Assembly (NCBI RefSeq): GCF_001431405.1
Contig: NZ_LDJL01000011.1
Span: 1-64,000, forward strand
Length of the DNA: 64,000 bases
DNA from: Pseudoxanthomonas dokdonensis
GTDB lineage: Bacteria > Pseudomonadota > Gammaproteobacteria > Xanthomonadales > Xanthomonadaceae
Direction: 5' to 3'
A program made the position numbers and the translations under genes. Below are positions 50,711-56,564 of the stretch, in pieces. The notes beneath the pieces are model-generated. The model was not told the origin of the DNA. It saw only the letters and a program-made list of their open reading frames with translations, and did not search any database. Every line of letters starts with the position of its first letter. Position 1 is the first letter of the stretch.

Positions 50711-51058
50711 TCAGACCGCGGCGGTGATCACGATCTCGACCAGTTCCTCAGGCGTCGACAGCGCGGCCTGCACGGTGGCGCGGGCGGGCAGATGATCCTT
50801 GTCCATCCATTCTTCCCAGGCCTGGTTCATGCCGTCGTAATCGCGGGCGATGTCGTGCAGGAAAATCTCCGCCTTCAGGATGCCGCGCTTGTCGGTGCCC
50901 AGCGTCGCCAGCAGCGCATCGATGGACTGCAGAACCTGCCGGGTCTGCCCGACCACGTCCTGGCTGTCATCGTCAGCGACGATCCCGGCCAGATAGGCCA
51001 CGTTGCCATGGATGACGGCGGCCGAATAGCGTTGGCCGGGTTGGATGCGCTTGATCAT
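50711..51058 (-). CDS. RidA/YjgF family protein
   Basis: A 115-residue Rid-superfamily protein (enamine/imine deaminase fold, trimeric). Its features are YSAAVIHGNVAYLAGIVADD, QTRQVLQSIDALLATLGTD and the C-terminal LPARATVQAALSTPEELVEIVITA. The Arg of PARATVQA matches the catalytic Arg region of RidA. ATG 51058 has GGAG 6 nt upstream. It is 60 bp downstream of the second diguanylate cyclase gene on the same strand; whether it belongs to that operon is unknown. Confidence 0.88.
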   Translation of the reverse strand: MIKRIQPGQRYSAAVIHGNVAYLAGIVADDDSQDVVGQTRQVLQSIDALLATLGTDKRGILKAEIFLHDIARDYDGMNQAWEEWMDKDHLPARATVQAALSTPEELVEIVITAAV

Positions 51059-51118: not shown

Positions 51119-52990
51119 TCAAGCGTGCGGCATGCGGAAGTTCTTGGCGCCATGGCTGCTGACCAGCCGCAGCTCGCCAAGCTCGGCACTGGCGAACACC
51201 GGCTCGGCGTCTTCGTCGTGGCTCGTGGCCGCGCCTTCGTGCACGCAGACCCGGTTGCGGCCCAGGTGCTTGGCCCGGTACAGCGCGCGATCGGCATGCG
51301 ACAACAATCTCGACAGCTGGTAACCGGAAGAAGCCGTCGAAGCGACGCCGAAGCTGGCGGTAATCGGGTAGCTGTGGCCGGTTTCGCTGGTATCGATGGC
51401 GGCGATGCGTGCCCGGCAGTCTTCGGCCAGCCGCGTCGCCGACTGCAGGTCGCAGCCGCGCATCAGGAACGCGAATTCCTCGCCACCCAGCCGGCCCAGC
51501 ACGTCGAAGCGGCGGCAGACGTGCTTGCCGGCGCTGGCCACGTGCTTGAGTGCCCAGTCACCCATCGCATGGCCAAAACGGTCGTTGACGTTCTTGAAGT
51601 GATCCAGGTCGAACATGATCAGTGCCGCGTCCTCGCCGGTGGCCGCGCATTGCGCCAGCATCCGCTCGGCCTGATCGGTGAAGTAATGACGGTTGCAGGT
51701 GTCGGTCATCAGATCGGTCTGCGCCATCTTCTGCAACGAGCGCTGGATGCGCCGGGTGCGATAGATCCAGACCCCCAGCCCACCCAGCAGCAATGCCATC
51801 AACACCACCAGCAGGCGGGTGTTCTGGGTCGCCTGGCGTTCCAGTTGCTGCTGCAGCCGCAGCAACTGGTTCTGGTCGTCGAGCTGCTTGATCTTCTGCG
51901 CGTTCTGCGCGGTTTCGTGCTGCACCATCTGGTAGGCCAGCTCACGGGTCTTGACCTCGTTGAGGTAGGCCTTGTCGGCATCGGCATAACGACGGAAGTA
52001 CACCAGCGCCTGCTCGTCATCGCCCCGTGCCTGGGCAACGCGGTACAGGGTCTGGTAGCCATCGACCACCGAATACGACGCCGGCATCGAACTGCCCTGC
52101 GCAATGGCCTCGTTGGCCAGGGTCTCCGCGGCGGGCAGATCGCCTTTTTCCATCATCAGCCGTGCCAGCAACGCCTTGAACTCGGCGATCAGGTAGGCGT
52201 AATGGGTCGCTTCGACGTCGGCTACGTGGCTGGACAGCAGCGAAACCGCTTCGTCGCGCCGTCCCTCGTCAAACCACTTGTGGGCCAGCACCGTGCGCAT
52301 GCTGTTGGCGACGATGGGTTCGTTCTCCTGCAGGCACTGGTTGATCGATCTGCGGATATCCGCCGTTGACTGCAGCAACTGCTGCGACCGGTACAGCGCG
52401 TCCATCTCCAGGTAATTGGCGTAGCAGACATCGCGCGCCAGCAATGACAGGCCGCGCATTCTCTGCACGTAGGCCAATGCCTGCCGGTACTCACCCACTT
52501 CGATATGCAGGTAGGCAGCTTCAATCAGCAAGGTCGCCTTTAGATTGATGTCCTCTATCCGATCAATGTCCGGCTGCATCAGCGCAAGCTGGCGCAGGCT
52601 GTCGGAAAACCTGCGCGCCTTGGTGTACAGATTGACCAGCAGCGAGCCGGCCCGCAGCCGGATGCGTGGATCGCGGGCGGTGGCATGCAGTGACTGCAGT
52701 TGCGGGATGGCCAGTGGATAGCTGCCACCGTAGGCGAGTTTGAACGCAGCCAGGTATCTCAGTTTTTCCCGCTGCAGATCATCCAGCTCGCCCTGCCGTC
52801 GCTGCAGTTCTTCCAGCAACTGGGCAAACCGCGGCGCGTCGGCGCTGCGCAGATCATCGGCCTGCTGCAGCAGTTGTCCGGCCGTTGACGTCGGCACCGC
52901 AAAAGAAGGCGGCGCGGCAAAGACCGCGGAACCGGCCTGGATGGCCAGCACCGCGATCATCAGACACCACCGGCGTAGCGGGACTGTCAT
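51119..52990 (-). CDS. TPR-sensor diguanylate cyclase B (borosin locus)
   Basis: A 623-residue protein. A signal peptide or N-terminal anchor (ends near AVFAA) is followed by a periplasmic TPR-like helical region (about residues 35-345) and a coiled coil. A membrane helix (about 393-410) and a C-terminal GGDEF domain follow. The active site is GGEEF (502-506), preceded by the RxxD inhibitory site (RRFD), so c-di-GMP synthesis with product control is likely. ATG 52990 is 53 bp after precursor B. It is clearly paralogous to cyclase A over its whole length. The TPR part could read a peptide signal (inference). Confidence 0.92.
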   Translation of the reverse strand: MTVPLRRWCLMIAVLAIQAGSAVFAAPPSFAVPTSTAGQLLQQADDLRSADAPRFAQLLEELQRRQGELDDLQREKLRYLAAFKLAYGGSYPLAIPQLQSLHATARDPRIRLRAGSLLVNLYTKARRFSDSLRQLALMQPDIDRIEDINLKATLLIEAAYLHIEVGEYRQALAYVQRMRGLSLLARDVCYANYLEMDALYRSQQLLQSTADIRRSINQCLQENEPIVANSMRTVLAHKWFDEGRRDEAVSLLSSHVADVEATHYAYLIAEFKALLARLMMEKGDLPAAETLANEAIAQGSSMPASYSVVDGYQTLYRVAQARGDDEQALVYFRRYADADKAYLNEVKTRELAYQMVQHETAQNAQKIKQLDDQNQLLRLQQQLERQATQNTRLLVVLMALLLGGLGVWIYRTRRIQRSLQKMAQTDLMTDTCNRHYFTDQAERMLAQCAATGEDAALIMFDLDHFKNVNDRFGHAMGDWALKHVASAGKHVCRRFDVLGRLGGEEFAFLMRGCDLQSATRLAEDCRARIAAIDTSETGHSYPITASFGVASTASSGYQLSRLLSHADRALYRAKHLGRNRVCVHEGAATSHDEDAEPVFASAELGELRLVSSHGAKNFRMPHA

Positions 52991-53043
52991 GGCCTGCCCT
53001 GCCTCGGTGCGACGCCAGCGCCGCACCGGTTCAGCGAGCGCGC

Positions 53044-53310
53044 TTATTCTTCTTCGTCGTCATCCTGCCGCACCGGTGACTCCATCGGCGCGTTCTCGTC
53101 TTCTTCATTGCCACCGTGCTGGATGGCCATCATCAGCTGGCGACCGTTCAAGGCCTGGTTCAGTGCGCCGGCATCGGCGGCCAACAGCGCGCGGCGCTGG
53201 TCGTCGGCCAGTGCCATTGTCGCCATCAGCGCTTCGATCTCGTTGGCGGGCAGTGCGGCCAGGGTGGGATTCTGGCCAAGGGTTTCGAGAAAACGGATTG
53301 CGTTGGACAT
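53044..53310 (-). CDS. Split-borosin precursor peptide B
   Basis: An 88-residue peptide. Residues 1-56 form a helical leader (FLETLGQNPTLAALP...IEALMATMAL...ALLAADAGALNQALNG) like the borosin-binding domain of SonA-type precursors. A short hydrophobic segment (QLMMAIQHG, 58-66) follows as the likely core, then a Glu/Asp-rich tail (EEDEN...QDDDEEE). It shares the leader with precursor A, but the core differs. ATG 53310 has GGAG about 10 nt upstream. The assignment rests on the methyltransferase gene upstream; no N-methylation can be proved from sequence. Confidence 0.8.
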   Translation of the reverse strand: MSNAIRFLETLGQNPTLAALPANEIEALMATMALADDQRRALLAADAGALNQALNGRQLMMAIQHGGNEEDENAPMESPVRQDDDEEE

Positions 53311-53588
53311 CAGTGCGTTACTCCAGGCGGAAGTTGGAAGTACGTTCAACTGCGACAACAACGGATAACCAGGCCAGGCAGCGGCGACGTGTGCATCGTG
53401 ACGCTGGAAGTGGCAAAACCCTGCTGGGAAATTCCGTCAGGCACTAGGCCCAACGCTGCAACGGCCCTGCCCCGGCCATTGCCGCAGTGTGTCACCGCCT
53501 TGCTGGCCGGACAATGGCCGCCAGCGCCGGCTGGCACGGCTTTCGGACCGGCGGTCGGATCCATGACCGGTGCCGCGGGCACCCCGGC
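53311..53588. other. Spacer between the two precursor-cyclase modules
   Basis: 278 bp without a gene between cyclase A stop and precursor B start. An inverted repeat cggccattg/caatggccg (53473-53481 and 53512-53520) lies in its middle. The region next to precursor B (53340-53370) is less G+C-rich and could hold a separate promoter, which would let module B be expressed independently. Confidence 0.45.
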
Positions 53589-55445
53589 CTACAGGACGAT
53601 CTGGCTGCGGCTCGGCGGCTCGGCCTCGATGCCGGCGTCAAAGGCCGGCAACACCTCGATGGCGCGGTCGGGATGAGCCGCCAGCGGCTCCTCGCGCAAC
53701 CGTGTTCCCACCACCCGGTTGCGGCCGTCGTGCTTGGCCCGGTACAGCATGCGATCGGCCTGTGACAACAGCCGCGACAGGGTGTAGCCGGCCTCGCAGG
53801 AGGCCATAACCCCGAAGCTGGCGGTGACCCTGAAGCGCTGGCCGCTGGGCGATGTATCGATATCGGCCAGAACCCGCCGGCATTCTTCGGCGATGGCCAT
53901 GGCAGCCGCTGGTTCGCAGCGACGCAACAGGAAAGCGAACTCTTCACCGCCCAGGCGTCCGAACACGTCACCGCCACGGCACAGCGGCAGACAATCGCGG
54001 CTGACCTGCTGCAGCGCCCAGTCACCGACGGCGTGACCGAACCGATCATTGATGCTCTTGAAACCATCCAGATCGAACATCACCAGCGCAACCGGTTCAT
54101 TGGCGGCTGCCGCCTGTGCCAGCGCCAGCTCGGCCTGGCTGGTGAAATGATGGCGGTTGGAGATGCCGGTCAGTGCATCGGTCTGGGCCAAGCTGCGCAG
54201 CGCCGACTGCAGGCGCTGGGTGCGGAATGCCCATACCCCCAACCCGGACAGCAGGATGACCAGCAGCACCACCATCAATCGCGAATTCTGGCTGGACTGC
54301 CGGTCGAGCTTCTGTTGCAGTCGCAGCAGTTGATTCTGGCTGTCCAGCTGGCGCAACCGATCGGCGTTCTGGGCCGACTCGTGCTGGACCATCTGGAATG
54401 CCAGTTCCCGTGCCTTGACCTCGTCCAGATAGGCACGGTCGGCATCGGCATAGCGGCGGTAGTAGACCAGCGCCTGCTCGTTGTCGCGGCGCGCCAGCGC
54501 AACCTGGTACAGGCTCTGGTAGCTGTCGACCATGGCCCGCGAACTATGCAGCGCGGCGCCCTGGGCGATGGCCTCGGTGGCGTAGGTTTCGGCCTCGGTC
54601 CACTGCCCCTTCTGCACCAGCAGCATTGACAGCAGTGACTTGGCTTCGGTGATCAGGAACGCGTAGTTGGTGGCCTCGATGGCATGCAAGTGCGAGGTCA
54701 GCAGGGCAATGGCCTGATCGCGCTTTTTCTCATCCATCCATTTGCGCGCCAGCAGCGTACGGATGTAATTGGACAACACCGGTTCGCGGGCCTGTTCGCA
54801 ACGCTCGATGGCGCCCTGGATGTCATCATCCTGCTCGGGCATGCGCCCGAGCTTCAACAGTGCGGCAAACTTCAGGCCGTCACTGAGGCATGCATCCCGA
54901 TCACTCAGCTCGTACTGCTTGACCGCCAGTGCGTCGCTCAGGCTCTGCTCGTATTTGCCGATGGTTTCGTGCAGATAGGCGGACTCGGTCAGCACCCCAA
55001 TCTCGAGATCATCATTGTCGATGCCAGCGGCTTCCAGCTTGATCTGGTTGAGCAGGCGCAACGCATCGGACACCTGCCGCTTCTTCGAATAGATATTGAC
55101 CAGGGTGGTACCGGCGCGCAGGCGCAGGCCGCGGTCGTTGCCACTGTCGCGTAATGCTTTGAGCTGGGCGATGGCACCGTCGAAATCACTCAGATAGGCC
55201 ATCCGGTAGCCTTTCAGATAGGCCAGCTGCTCACCCTGCTGCTCGGACAGTGGTGCCTGCCCGAGGACCCGCAGCAGGTGCTCCAGTTCTTCCGGCTGCG
55301 AGCTGCGGATCTGCCAGGCACGCTCGAGCATCGCCGGCACCTCGCTCCGGGCCACACTCGCCGCCGCGGCCGGCGCGGCAGTGCCCGTCCCCGGCGCGAT
55401 GGCCAGGGCGATGGACAGGCAGACGGTGGCCAGCCAGCTACGCAT
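53589..55445 (-). CDS. TPR-sensor diguanylate cyclase A (borosin locus)
   Basis: A 618-residue protein. A signal peptide (ends near GTGTAAPAAAA) precedes a periplasmic TPR-like helical region (about residues 35-345), a coiled coil (345-387), a membrane helix (388-405) and a GGDEF domain. The active site is GGEEF (499-503). The RGGD inhibitory site lies five residues before it, and MFDLDGFKSINDRFGH is the metal-binding block. It begins 8 bp after precursor A; an AGGAGG ribosome site lies inside the precursor 3' end, so the two are translationally linked. It is paralogous to cyclase B. Confidence 0.93.
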   Translation of the reverse strand: MRSWLATVCLSIALAIAPGTGTAAPAAAASVARSEVPAMLERAWQIRSSQPEELEHLLRVLGQAPLSEQQGEQLAYLKGYRMAYLSDFDGAIAQLKALRDSGNDRGLRLRAGTTLVNIYSKKRQVSDALRLLNQIKLEAAGIDNDDLEIGVLTESAYLHETIGKYEQSLSDALAVKQYELSDRDACLSDGLKFAALLKLGRMPEQDDDIQGAIERCEQAREPVLSNYIRTLLARKWMDEKKRDQAIALLTSHLHAIEATNYAFLITEAKSLLSMLLVQKGQWTEAETYATEAIAQGAALHSSRAMVDSYQSLYQVALARRDNEQALVYYRRYADADRAYLDEVKARELAFQMVQHESAQNADRLRQLDSQNQLLRLQQKLDRQSSQNSRLMVVLLVILLSGLGVWAFRTQRLQSALRSLAQTDALTGISNRHHFTSQAELALAQAAAANEPVALVMFDLDGFKSINDRFGHAVGDWALQQVSRDCLPLCRGGDVFGRLGGEEFAFLLRRCEPAAAMAIAEECRRVLADIDTSPSGQRFRVTASFGVMASCEAGYTLSRLLSQADRMLYRAKHDGRNRVVGTRLREEPLAAHPDRAIEVLPAFDAGIEAEPPSRSQIVL

Positions 55446-55453
55446 GCGCGGGT

Positions 55454-55732
55454 TCAGTCCTCCTGCGGCTCGTCCTGGCTGTCGTCGTCCCGTTGCGGCG
55501 CATCGGCAGGCGAACGTTCTTCGCTTTCACCGGGCTCACGCAGCATCGGCATCATCATCATCCGGCCGCCGAGCAGGTGGCTGAGGCGGGCGCTGTCGCC
55601 GGCGCGCAATGCGTCGCGCTGCTGGTCTTCCAGCGCCATGTCGGCCATCAGTGTTTCCAGGTCGGCAGCGGACAGCGCGGACAAGGTCGGGTTCTGGCCC
55701 AGGGTTTCAAGCAGGCGGAGACTGTTGGACAT
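55454..55732 (-). CDS. Split-borosin precursor peptide A
   Basis: A 92-residue peptide. The leader (residues 1-56) is LRLLETLGQNPTLSAL, then LETLMADMALEDQQRDAL and RAGDSARLSHLLGG. It follows the LGQ...L...M...L...E...A...GD...L...L pattern of SonA-type borosin-binding domains. After GGR comes a Met-rich candidate core (MMMMPMLREPG, 58-68) and a highly acidic C-terminal tail. ATG 55732 has GGAAAA about 8 nt upstream. It lies 31 bp downstream of the methyltransferase stop and immediately before cyclase A. Confidence 0.85.
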   Translation of the reverse strand: MSNSLRLLETLGQNPTLSALSAADLETLMADMALEDQQRDALRAGDSARLSHLLGGRMMMMPMLREPGESEERSPADAPQRDDDSQDEPQED

Positions 55733-55763
55733 ACGTGTTTTCCGGAGTTGGATGGATGCGGCA

Positions 55764-56564
55764 TCAGGCCGCGGCGTTGGCCACATGCTGCAACCGGGAC
55801 ATCGCCTGTTGCAACGCGTGATTGGGTTGCATCGGGCGCGACGGCGGCACCACCAGTGTAGTGTGCAGACTCAGATCGGTGCTCGCCAGATCGCCCAGGG
55901 CGATGTGCTGCATGCGCGGGGTCTGCAGCGCCAGCGTGACCGCCTCATAGACGATGACCTGGTGATCGAGCGGATAATCCTGGGCCAGCAGATCGACCAG
56001 CAGCTGGCGTTGTTCGCTGCTGCTGGCATAGACCTTCAGGCTGCGGTCGCCGGCCAGCCCCACCTGCCACAGGATCAGATAGGCCGACGGGTCGATACGA
56101 CGCTGGTACAGCATGAACTGGCTGGCCTCGAAATGCTGGCAGCCATAGCTGCCCGGGTCGATGCCCAGGTCGGCGTACAGGCAGTCCTCGGCCGACACGC
56201 CGGGCTCCATCACCGCCTCGAAGCCTTCGGCACGCGCCTGCGCCACCGCGCGGTGCGGTGCCATCGCGAACACGCCGGGATGGCCATAGAACGCGCCGCA
56301 CACATGTTTGCCGGCACGCACTTCGGCCAGCAGCAGATCGACCATCTCGCGATAGGTGTCGCGCCGCGATTTGCCCTCCGCATACAGCGGCTGCAGGCTG
56401 CGCACATCGGGGTTCATCTGCTGGATCCACAGTTCGACCAGGGGATCGGAGACCGCCACGAACACCACGTCCGCATGCTCGATGTGATGTCGGGCACGTG
56501 GGCTGATGTGTCCGCCAAGCATCATTCCTGTCCCGACGCAGGCCAGAATCCCCGGTTGTTGCAT
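55764..56564 (-). CDS. Borosin-type peptide backbone N-methyltransferase (split, OphMA/SonM-like)
   Basis: A 266-residue SAM-dependent enzyme of the tetrapyrrole-methylase fold that methylates peptide-bond nitrogens of a RiPP precursor. ACVGTGMMLGGHIS is the SAM loop. The strongest evidence is Y61, R67, Y71 and Y93 (YAEGKSRRDTY and FYGHPGVF), which match in type and spacing the catalytic Tyr-Arg-Tyr-Tyr set of fungal OphMA. PGVSAEDCLYADLGIDPGSYGC and FEAS are also shared. Unlike OphMA it has no fused core peptide, so it must act in trans. ATG 56564 has GAGAAG upstream. It is the first gene of the locus. Confidence 0.92.
   Translation of the reverse strand: MQQPGILACVGTGMMLGGHISPRARHHIEHADVVFVAVSDPLVELWIQQMNPDVRSLQPLYAEGKSRRDTYREMVDLLLAEVRAGKHVCGAFYGHPGVFAMAPHRAVAQARAEGFEAVMEPGVSAEDCLYADLGIDPGSYGCQHFEASQFMLYQRRIDPSAYLILWQVGLAGDRSLKVYASSSEQRQLLVDLLAQDYPLDHQVIVYEAVTLALQTPRMQHIALGDLASTDLSLHTTLVVPPSRPMQPNHALQQAMSRLQHVANAAA

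Follow-up and report, generated by a model that had tools for sequence, protein, structure and literature searches.

A split-borosin locus of Pseudoxanthomonas dokdonensis with two precursor genes, each followed by a TPR-GGDEF cyclase gene, and its possible link to c-di-GMP signaling

In the 64,000-nucleotide stretch of Pseudoxanthomonas dokdonensis DNA analyzed here (contig NZ_LDJL01000011.1, positions 1 to 64,000; referred to below as the window), five genes at 51119-56564 encode a borosin alpha-N-methyltransferase (MT) and two pairs of proteins, each pair made up of a short borosin precursor and a cyclase that joins a TPR part to a GGDEF domain. Conserved gene order, the limitation of this TPR sensor to MT-bearing genomes among 46 searched, and natural gene fusions all support, at the level of sequence, a real link between precursor and cyclase. 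The reading we favor, at somewhat less than an even chance, is a split-borosin cassette with a dedicated partner in cyclic di-GMP (c-di-GMP) signaling, in which two precursor-cyclase pairs are served by one MT and the peptide would be read by the TPR part of the cyclase.

The gene order given by the first-pass annotation, made from the window sequence alone, holds: MT, precursor A, cyclase A, precursor B and cyclase B, all on the minus strand. Each precursor directly precedes a cyclase with a TPR part, a transmembrane segment and an intact GGEEF motif; that annotation had likewise put a transmembrane c-di-GMP synthase directly after each precursor. The spacers are 31 bp between the MT and precursor A, 8 bp between precursor A and cyclase A, 278 bp between cyclase A and precursor B, and 17 bp between precursor B and cyclase B. 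The features are as follows.

55764-56564, minus strand: borosin alpha-N-methyltransferase, SonM-like, 266 residues (phmmer against the PDB, PF00590, Y61/R67/Y71/Y93)
55454-55732, minus strand: precursor A, 92 residues, with a five-helix leader at 1-53, a core at about 58-67 and an acidic tail (AlphaFold2 model, Foldseek, VIA, family profile)
55532-55561, minus strand: candidate core of precursor A, residues 58-67, MMMMPMLREP, putatively methylated (alignment of SonA chain 7ltc_D)
53589-55445, minus strand: cyclase A, 618 residues, with a TPR solenoid at about 31-385, a hydrophobic segment at 387-411 and a GGDEF domain at 420-577 (Pfam, AlphaFold2 model)
53937-53951, minus strand: GGEEF active-site motif of cyclase A, with the RxxD I-site upstream (invariant in the cyclase alignment)
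54888-54890, minus strand: Cys186 of cyclase A, invariant TPR cysteine (two cyclase alignments)
54798-54800, minus strand: Cys216 of cyclase A, invariant TPR cysteine (two cyclase alignments)
53044-53310, minus strand: precursor B, 88 residues (51% identity to precursor A, hidden Markov model (HMM) of the borosin binding domain (BBD))
53110-53139, minus strand: candidate core of precursor B, residues 58-67, QLMMAIQHGG (probable position, by alignment to precursor A)
51119-53026, minus strand: cyclase B, 635 residues from a GTG start (an alternative in-frame ATG lies at 52990), with an N-terminal hydrophobic segment at 20-41, a TPR part, a hydrophobic segment at 403-425 and a GGDEF domain at 435-592 (Pfam)
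51473-51487, minus strand: GGEEF active-site motif of cyclase B, with the RxxD I-site upstream (motif scan)

By sequence comparison, the product of 55764-56564 is a borosin alpha-N-methyltransferase of a split (type IV-like) system. Its best PDB match in a phmmer search was SonM (272 bits, E 4.6e-80), with 123 of 248 aligned residues identical (50%), and OphMA was matched at about 169 bits. All 25 distinct PDB sequences found at E<=0.001 were borosin enzymes. Y61, R67, Y71 and Y93 stand where the first-pass annotation had put the catalytic set and correspond to Y58, R67, Y71 and Y93 of SonM, so that the same Tyr/Arg/Tyr/Tyr set is present in both; these residues of SonM are discussed in a passage of PMC8429565. 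The enzyme belongs to the Pfam superfamily PF00590 (TP_methylase), and it matches the NCBIfam models of YabN and of cobalamin enzymes at scores far below their cut-offs. Both points would suit an ordinary cobalamin or diphthine methylase, an assignment that we reject with near certainty in view of the borosin identity of every PDB relative, SonM first among them, and the match of the precursor leaders to SonA. By sequence search, the comparison with SonM and OphMA proposed at first pass places the MT among borosin enzymes.

Both short open reading frames (ORFs) are, on sequence and model evidence, SonA-like borosin precursors with a five-helix BBD leader, in agreement with their first assignment. 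They share 51% identity over 88 residues. As a single-sequence query against the PDB, precursor A returned nothing useful; a profile of 32 precursors (the two of the window and 30 from related loci) returned 10 rows, of which the top seven were SonA, at E values of 0.0035-0.013. The AlphaFold2 model of precursor A (mean predicted local distance difference test score, pLDDT, 73.6) has exactly five helices, at residues 3-13, 15-19, 22-31, 36-44 and 47-53, and the SonA leader is described in a passage of PMC8429565 as five helices spanning residues 1-53. In a Foldseek search with this model, ranks 1-14 of 19 were all SonA chains, with template modeling scores on the target of 0.65-0.76 and E values of only 0.24-4.5. 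SonA also gave the best VIA matches (Z 6.5-7.3), in which residues 4-71 of SonA chain 7ltc_D align to residues 4-70 of the model. We place the core of precursor A at about residues 58-67 because the structural alignment to SonA puts it there. The methylation sites of SonA are given as 63 and 65 in the same part of PMC8429565, and backbone methylation of the candidate cores at residues 58-67 would be expected in this organism. Precursor B matched the BBD HMM at E 8e-22, with both window precursors being in the seed of that HMM.

Across relatives, a cysteine in the core is common, being found in at least 72 of 93 precursors (a count in a fixed residue window, which misses a few short or mis-started precursors), and it is absent from the cores of both window precursors. 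An acidic tail follows the core, with at least one quarter Asp or Glu in the last 30 residues of 84 of the 93. The mean Asp/Glu fraction of these last 30 residues is 0.34 in the 93 precursors versus 0.15 in 32 SonA-like ones.

The two cyclases carry the GGDEF domain PF00990 at E 6.8e-41 and 1e-39. Each has a GGEEF motif, an RxxD five residues upstream of it and, around residue 400, a hydrophobic segment. At the N-terminus, such a segment exceeds the same threshold in cyclase B only, and the start of cyclase A looks like a signal peptide by eye. In the AlphaFold2 model of cyclase A (mean pLDDT 89), a helical solenoid, a long helix at 322-421 and a GGDEF fold can be recognized, so that the motif and the fold of an active diguanylate cyclase are both present by sequence and model. 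Of 103 cyclase frames, including truncated copies of the same gene, 102 have an intact GG(D/E)EF, and the single miss is a fragment. All 30 cyclases of one alignment have Cys186 and Cys216 (cyclase A numbering), as do all 24 rows of a mixed set that includes fused and SonM-type forms and shares five rows with the first alignment; the pair would suit a disulfide. From the hydrophobic segments, placed by hydrophobicity and by eye, the TPR part is probably periplasmic. The solenoid of cyclase A resembles peptide-binding TPR proteins, including Rap receptors with their pheromone (Z about 23 over about 310 residues, 7-10% identity), a likeness to be taken as a lead, high Z values being usual for helical repeats in general. 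With regard to kinship with the RRNPP family (Rap, NprR, PlcR and PrgX), the comparison shows, for the families listed in it, a similarity of fold only, at 7-10% identity.

To see how far this arrangement extends, genome contigs were scanned with the window MT, which gave 29 related loci, found in Xanthomonadales, in marine genera of the Alteromonadales type, in Marinicella and in unnamed bins. A TPR-GGDEF gene lies downstream on the same strand in all 29, and a short precursor-like ORF lies between the MT and the cyclase in all 29, four of these ORFs being too divergent for the precursor HMM. In the order Xanthomonadales, the MT was matched (E<=0.001) in 206 of 397 genomes. Longer regions were fetched for 40 of the best of these matches, one of them an unusable stub and several of them contigs already among the 29 loci; a cyclase was present in 39 of 39 and a precursor in 38 of 39. 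The survey for gene order suggested at first pass has returned the window's order in all 29 related loci. Of 60 Shewanella genomes, 52 carry an MT; a SonM-like MT occurs in all 52 and a window-type MT in 20 in addition. Precursor and TPR matches accompany the window-type MT in 20 of 20 loci, and a precursor and a TPR-GGDEF gene accompany the SonM-type MT in the 20 loci examined of 52 listed. A linkage kept in every one of the 29 related loci is more than chance. That these genes are mere neighbors with no functional link would agree with some MTs of the wider family that have no adjoining TPR-GGDEF gene; the 29 loci, the 20 SonM-type loci and the co-occurrence of sensor and MT argue against it, the gene fusions described below contradict it outright, and we reject it as very improbable. 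Within this branch of split borosins, pairing with a TPR-GGDEF cyclase is the rule; it does not extend to all split borosins.

Gene order and content vary among the loci. The order is precursor, cyclase, MT in L162, L163, L165 and L170; cyclase, MT, precursor, cyclase in L164; and MT, precursor, cyclase in L169. An ORF of another kind, 222 residues long, stands between the MT and the precursor at L014:7808-8473. At L168:3829-5448, a frame of 540 residues with two tandem MT matches lies beside a weak precursor match, without GGDEF. In L143, a frame of 1082 residues matches the TPR part weakly and lacks GGDEF.

Forty-six chosen genomes were searched for the TPR part of cyclase A. It was found in 21 of 21 genomes with a window-type MT and in none of 20 family members that lacked an MT match; since it was found in only two of five genomes of the fused type, the search misses diverged forms, and the absence from the 20 MT-less genomes is absence at that sensitivity. 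The window genome has 17 GGDEF domains, and the TPR part occurs only in the two cyclases of this locus. Apart from its normal cassette, genome G646 has a second TPR-GGDEF gene, at L245:3064-4830, with no MT or precursor match nearby.

Fusions join the same components in one chain. Frames of more than 800 codons at the MT occur in 10 of 27 genomes, and all 10 (L151-L160, 821-861 residues) encode TPR, GGDEF and MT as a single polypeptide, with a SonA-like precursor ORF just upstream. In three of three fusions tested, the Pfam order is GGDEF followed by TP_methylase. Distance matrices were compared over 36 rows, namely the window and 35 of 69 locus identifiers, the remaining identifiers being duplicates or having no stored precursor. 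MT distances gave a partial r of 0.51 with the TPR part versus 0.03 with the GGDEF part, and leader distances 0.32 versus -0.06.

The fusions fit control of the enzyme as well as they fit sensing of its product. This leaves room for a cyclase that acts upstream, its TPR part sensing something else and local c-di-GMP switching peptide production, with the peptide an ordinary secreted natural product. Regulators are, moreover, frequent in biosynthetic clusters. The recurrence of one particular TPR sensor across orders, with none found in 20 MT-less relatives, and a short core that is fairly constant in its cysteine, unlike a diversifying product, speak against such an arrangement, and we consider it quite unlikely.

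Relatives of the locus contain two further genes that bear on the fate of the peptide. A GNAT acetyltransferase (PF13302 in three of three tested) lies directly before the MT or between the MT and the precursor in 22 of 29 loci, and a pepsin-like protease (PF00026 in three of three tested) lies upstream of the MT in six of 29 (L017:4861-6360, L003:4898-6175, L012, L024, L002 and L016). The scripted counts were 21 and 5, to which L024 was added by hand; there, at L024:5614-7026, MT and GNAT are fused in one frame of 471 residues, overlapped by the pepsin frame by 44 bases. Seventeen of the 60 Shewanella genomes encode a relative of the L017 protease, in each case within 1 kb of a window-type MT, an MT present in 20 of the 60 (Fisher p 3e-12, kinship ignored). 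The three window-type loci without the protease (L189, L182 and L183) also have no GNAT in the 3.6-3.8 kb examined. The MT is in two pieces in L189, and in L182 a full-length MT is followed by an extra MT fragment; the three look as if the cassette were decaying.

In Xanthomonadales, PF00026 was found in 28 of 397 genomes, 26 of them with the MT. The genes for protease, GNAT and MT adjoin one another in G439, G485, G534, G613, G652 and G390, as well as in G634, a genome missing from the hits of the PF00026 search. A further 11 protease sites, some overlapping these, were inspected. In L246, the cassette is complete and the protease faces the end of the cyclase, and L247 is the same with no MT in the stretch. 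L256 repeats G390, seven sites (L248-L253 and L255) have the protease without a cassette, and L254 has no match to the protease queries. The linkage of protease and MT is looser in Xanthomonadales than in Shewanella, with at least seven of the fetched proteases standing alone. An association of GNAT with the core cysteine (Fisher p 0.03 over 83 loci, kinship and repeated contigs ignored) is not relied on here.

A working scheme can be put together from these parts. Gene identities, the SonA-like leader, the intact GGEEF, the TPR fold, the conserved linkage and the gene fusions enter it by sequence or model; a periplasmic location for the TPR part, methylation of the peptide in this organism, its release, export and binding, and the direction in which it acts are inferred. 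An MT dimer would bind the five-helix leader of either precursor and methylate backbone amides in the hydrophobic core, at about residues 58-67. The modified core would be released, in some relatives probably by the neighboring pepsin-like protease and in the window organism by another protease, and in some relatives the GNAT acetyltransferase may cap it. The released core would then reach the periplasm and bind the TPR domain of its cognate cyclase, and binding may alter the long transmembrane helix, hence GGDEF dimerization and c-di-GMP output. A broader proposal, which we regard as possible and rather doubtful, is that the split borosins of this branch are peptide signals and not antibiotics; in the most complete version, a cytoplasmic pepsin-like protease would cut out the backbone-methylated core, GNAT would cap it, and a dedicated, c-di-GMP-producing TPR receptor would detect it in the periplasm.

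Several observations weigh against the scheme, besides the limited reach of the TPR search and the generic character of the Rap likeness. In 20 more distant regions, TPR-GGDEF is found at the MT in 16, is not found next to it in three (L161, L167 and L168) and is cut off by the contig end in one (L166). Among eight MTs at 30-47% identity (L142-L149), one has TPR-GGDEF and seven have none within the 3-7 kb examined. Core distances do not single out the TPR part, with a partial r of 0.27 for core and TPR (reached in five of 300 permutations) and 0.22 for core and GGDEF (two of 300), values that are weak and not decisive. The PF00026 protease has no match in the window genome, and GNAT has none within the 64-kb window. 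Finally, a cytoplasmic precursor and a probably periplasmic sensor call for an export step that has no explanation in the scheme, and no exporter was recognized among the 30 most recurrent neighbor clusters, which were not annotated one by one.

Alternatively, the methylated precursor might stay in the cytoplasm and act on the GGDEF side, or hold MT and cyclase in one complex, as an internal subunit or allosteric regulator. Such a role agrees with the window precursors, in which no signal peptide is seen by eye, with the position of the MT behind the GGDEF domain in all 10 long frames, with the lack of a recognized exporter among recurrent neighbors, and with core-GGDEF and core-TPR correlations of about equal size. 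In relatives, however, the protease and acetyltransferase next to the MT speak for a released product, and it is the TPR part, not the GGDEF domain alone, that accompanies the cassettes; we judge the cytoplasmic role unlikely and retain the TPR-read peptide as the preferred reading.

A trait of the window itself is the presence of two precursor-cyclase pairs under one MT. The nearest relatives, G575 and G396 (75-76% MT identity), have two tandem cyclases and one detected precursor. In a cyclase tree made by a quick method and with long branches, window cyclases A and B are sisters and stand next to the distal cyclase of G575 and G396 (Shimodaira-Hasegawa-like approximate likelihood ratio test, SH-aLRT, 99 for each). 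The two cyclases are 47% identical in their TPR parts and 60% in GGDEF. Because cyclases A and B are sisters in the tree and the precursors are 51% identical, the precursor-cyclase unit was probably doubled and then diverged. Doubled cyclases also occur in L163, L164, L262, L264 and L276, and doubled precursors in L025, L026, L087, L266 and L272.

Around the cassette, a RidA/L-PSP family gene (PF01042) at 50711-51058, just downstream of cyclase B, gives no sign of belonging to it. Known RNA families gave two matches in the locus, both far under the gathering score (E 0.64 and 0.67), and were set aside. A scan for promoters and terminators was uninformative, with 0 promoter-like sites (0.9 expected) and three terminator-like sites (2.7 expected), all on the plus strand. 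PADLOC found no defense family match for the four proteins submitted (MT, both precursors and cyclase A).

The pairing suggests that these little-understood methylated peptides control, or are controlled by, a c-di-GMP sensor. If the TPR-read peptide is correct, it would amount to a Gram-negative system for sensing modified peptides with a cyclase output, some bacterial pepsins would acquire a function, and the window would represent a duplication into two channels sharing one MT. Sensor specificity, the fusions and the linked protease and acetyltransferase make the roles of bacterial borosins and shewasins directly testable in Shewanella. Published work already covers split borosins, SonM/SonA and a borosin architecture with GGDEF, as passages of PMC11395268 and PMC11285071 indicate. 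In the literature searched, which covers few subscription papers, we found no paper linking borosin and pepsin, or a precursor of a ribosomally synthesized and post-translationally modified peptide (RiPP) and a diguanylate cyclase. Co-occurrence of the TPR sensor with the MT, linkage of the protease and acetyltransferase, and the doubled precursor-cyclase unit were not found there and in this sense appear new. The first-pass remark that such a locus is not described is overstated, since the pairing is usual in this branch and in SonM-type loci and has a GGDEF counterpart in the legend cited below.

Among known systems, the closest is SonM/SonA, the type IV split borosin of Shewanella oneidensis, with which the window, compared with the described parts of that system, shares a separate MT and precursor, the five-helix leader, the Tyr/Arg set and 50% identity in the MT. 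Shewanella SonM-type loci likewise have a TPR-GGDEF gene next to them (20 of 20 examined, S. oneidensis itself not being identified among these). Unlike SonA, the window precursor has a long acidic tail and a different core, and the window has two precursors and two cyclases under one MT. The legend of Figure 1 in PMC11395268 names a "GGDEF-sequence-containing domain" among borosin architectures; as far as that legend goes, the association of GGDEF with a borosin MT is common to both, and the TPR-GGDEF-MT fusions may be the type meant. The pepsin homologues of bacteria known as shewasins, of which shewasin D is mainly cytoplasmic and for which a passage of the 2016 paper PMC4814920 notes no detailed functional study up to then, are comparable by family alone with the PF00026 proteases that stand beside the window-type MT in some relatives and are absent from the window genome. 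Fused fungal borosins of the OphMA type have an MT of the same family, with the core fused to the MT there and separate here. RRNPP receptors, such as Rap with its Phr peptides, are cytoplasmic receptors of unmodified peptides in Firmicutes; they have the TPR solenoid in common with the cyclases described here, whereas the latter have a cyclase output and are probably periplasmic in their sensor part.

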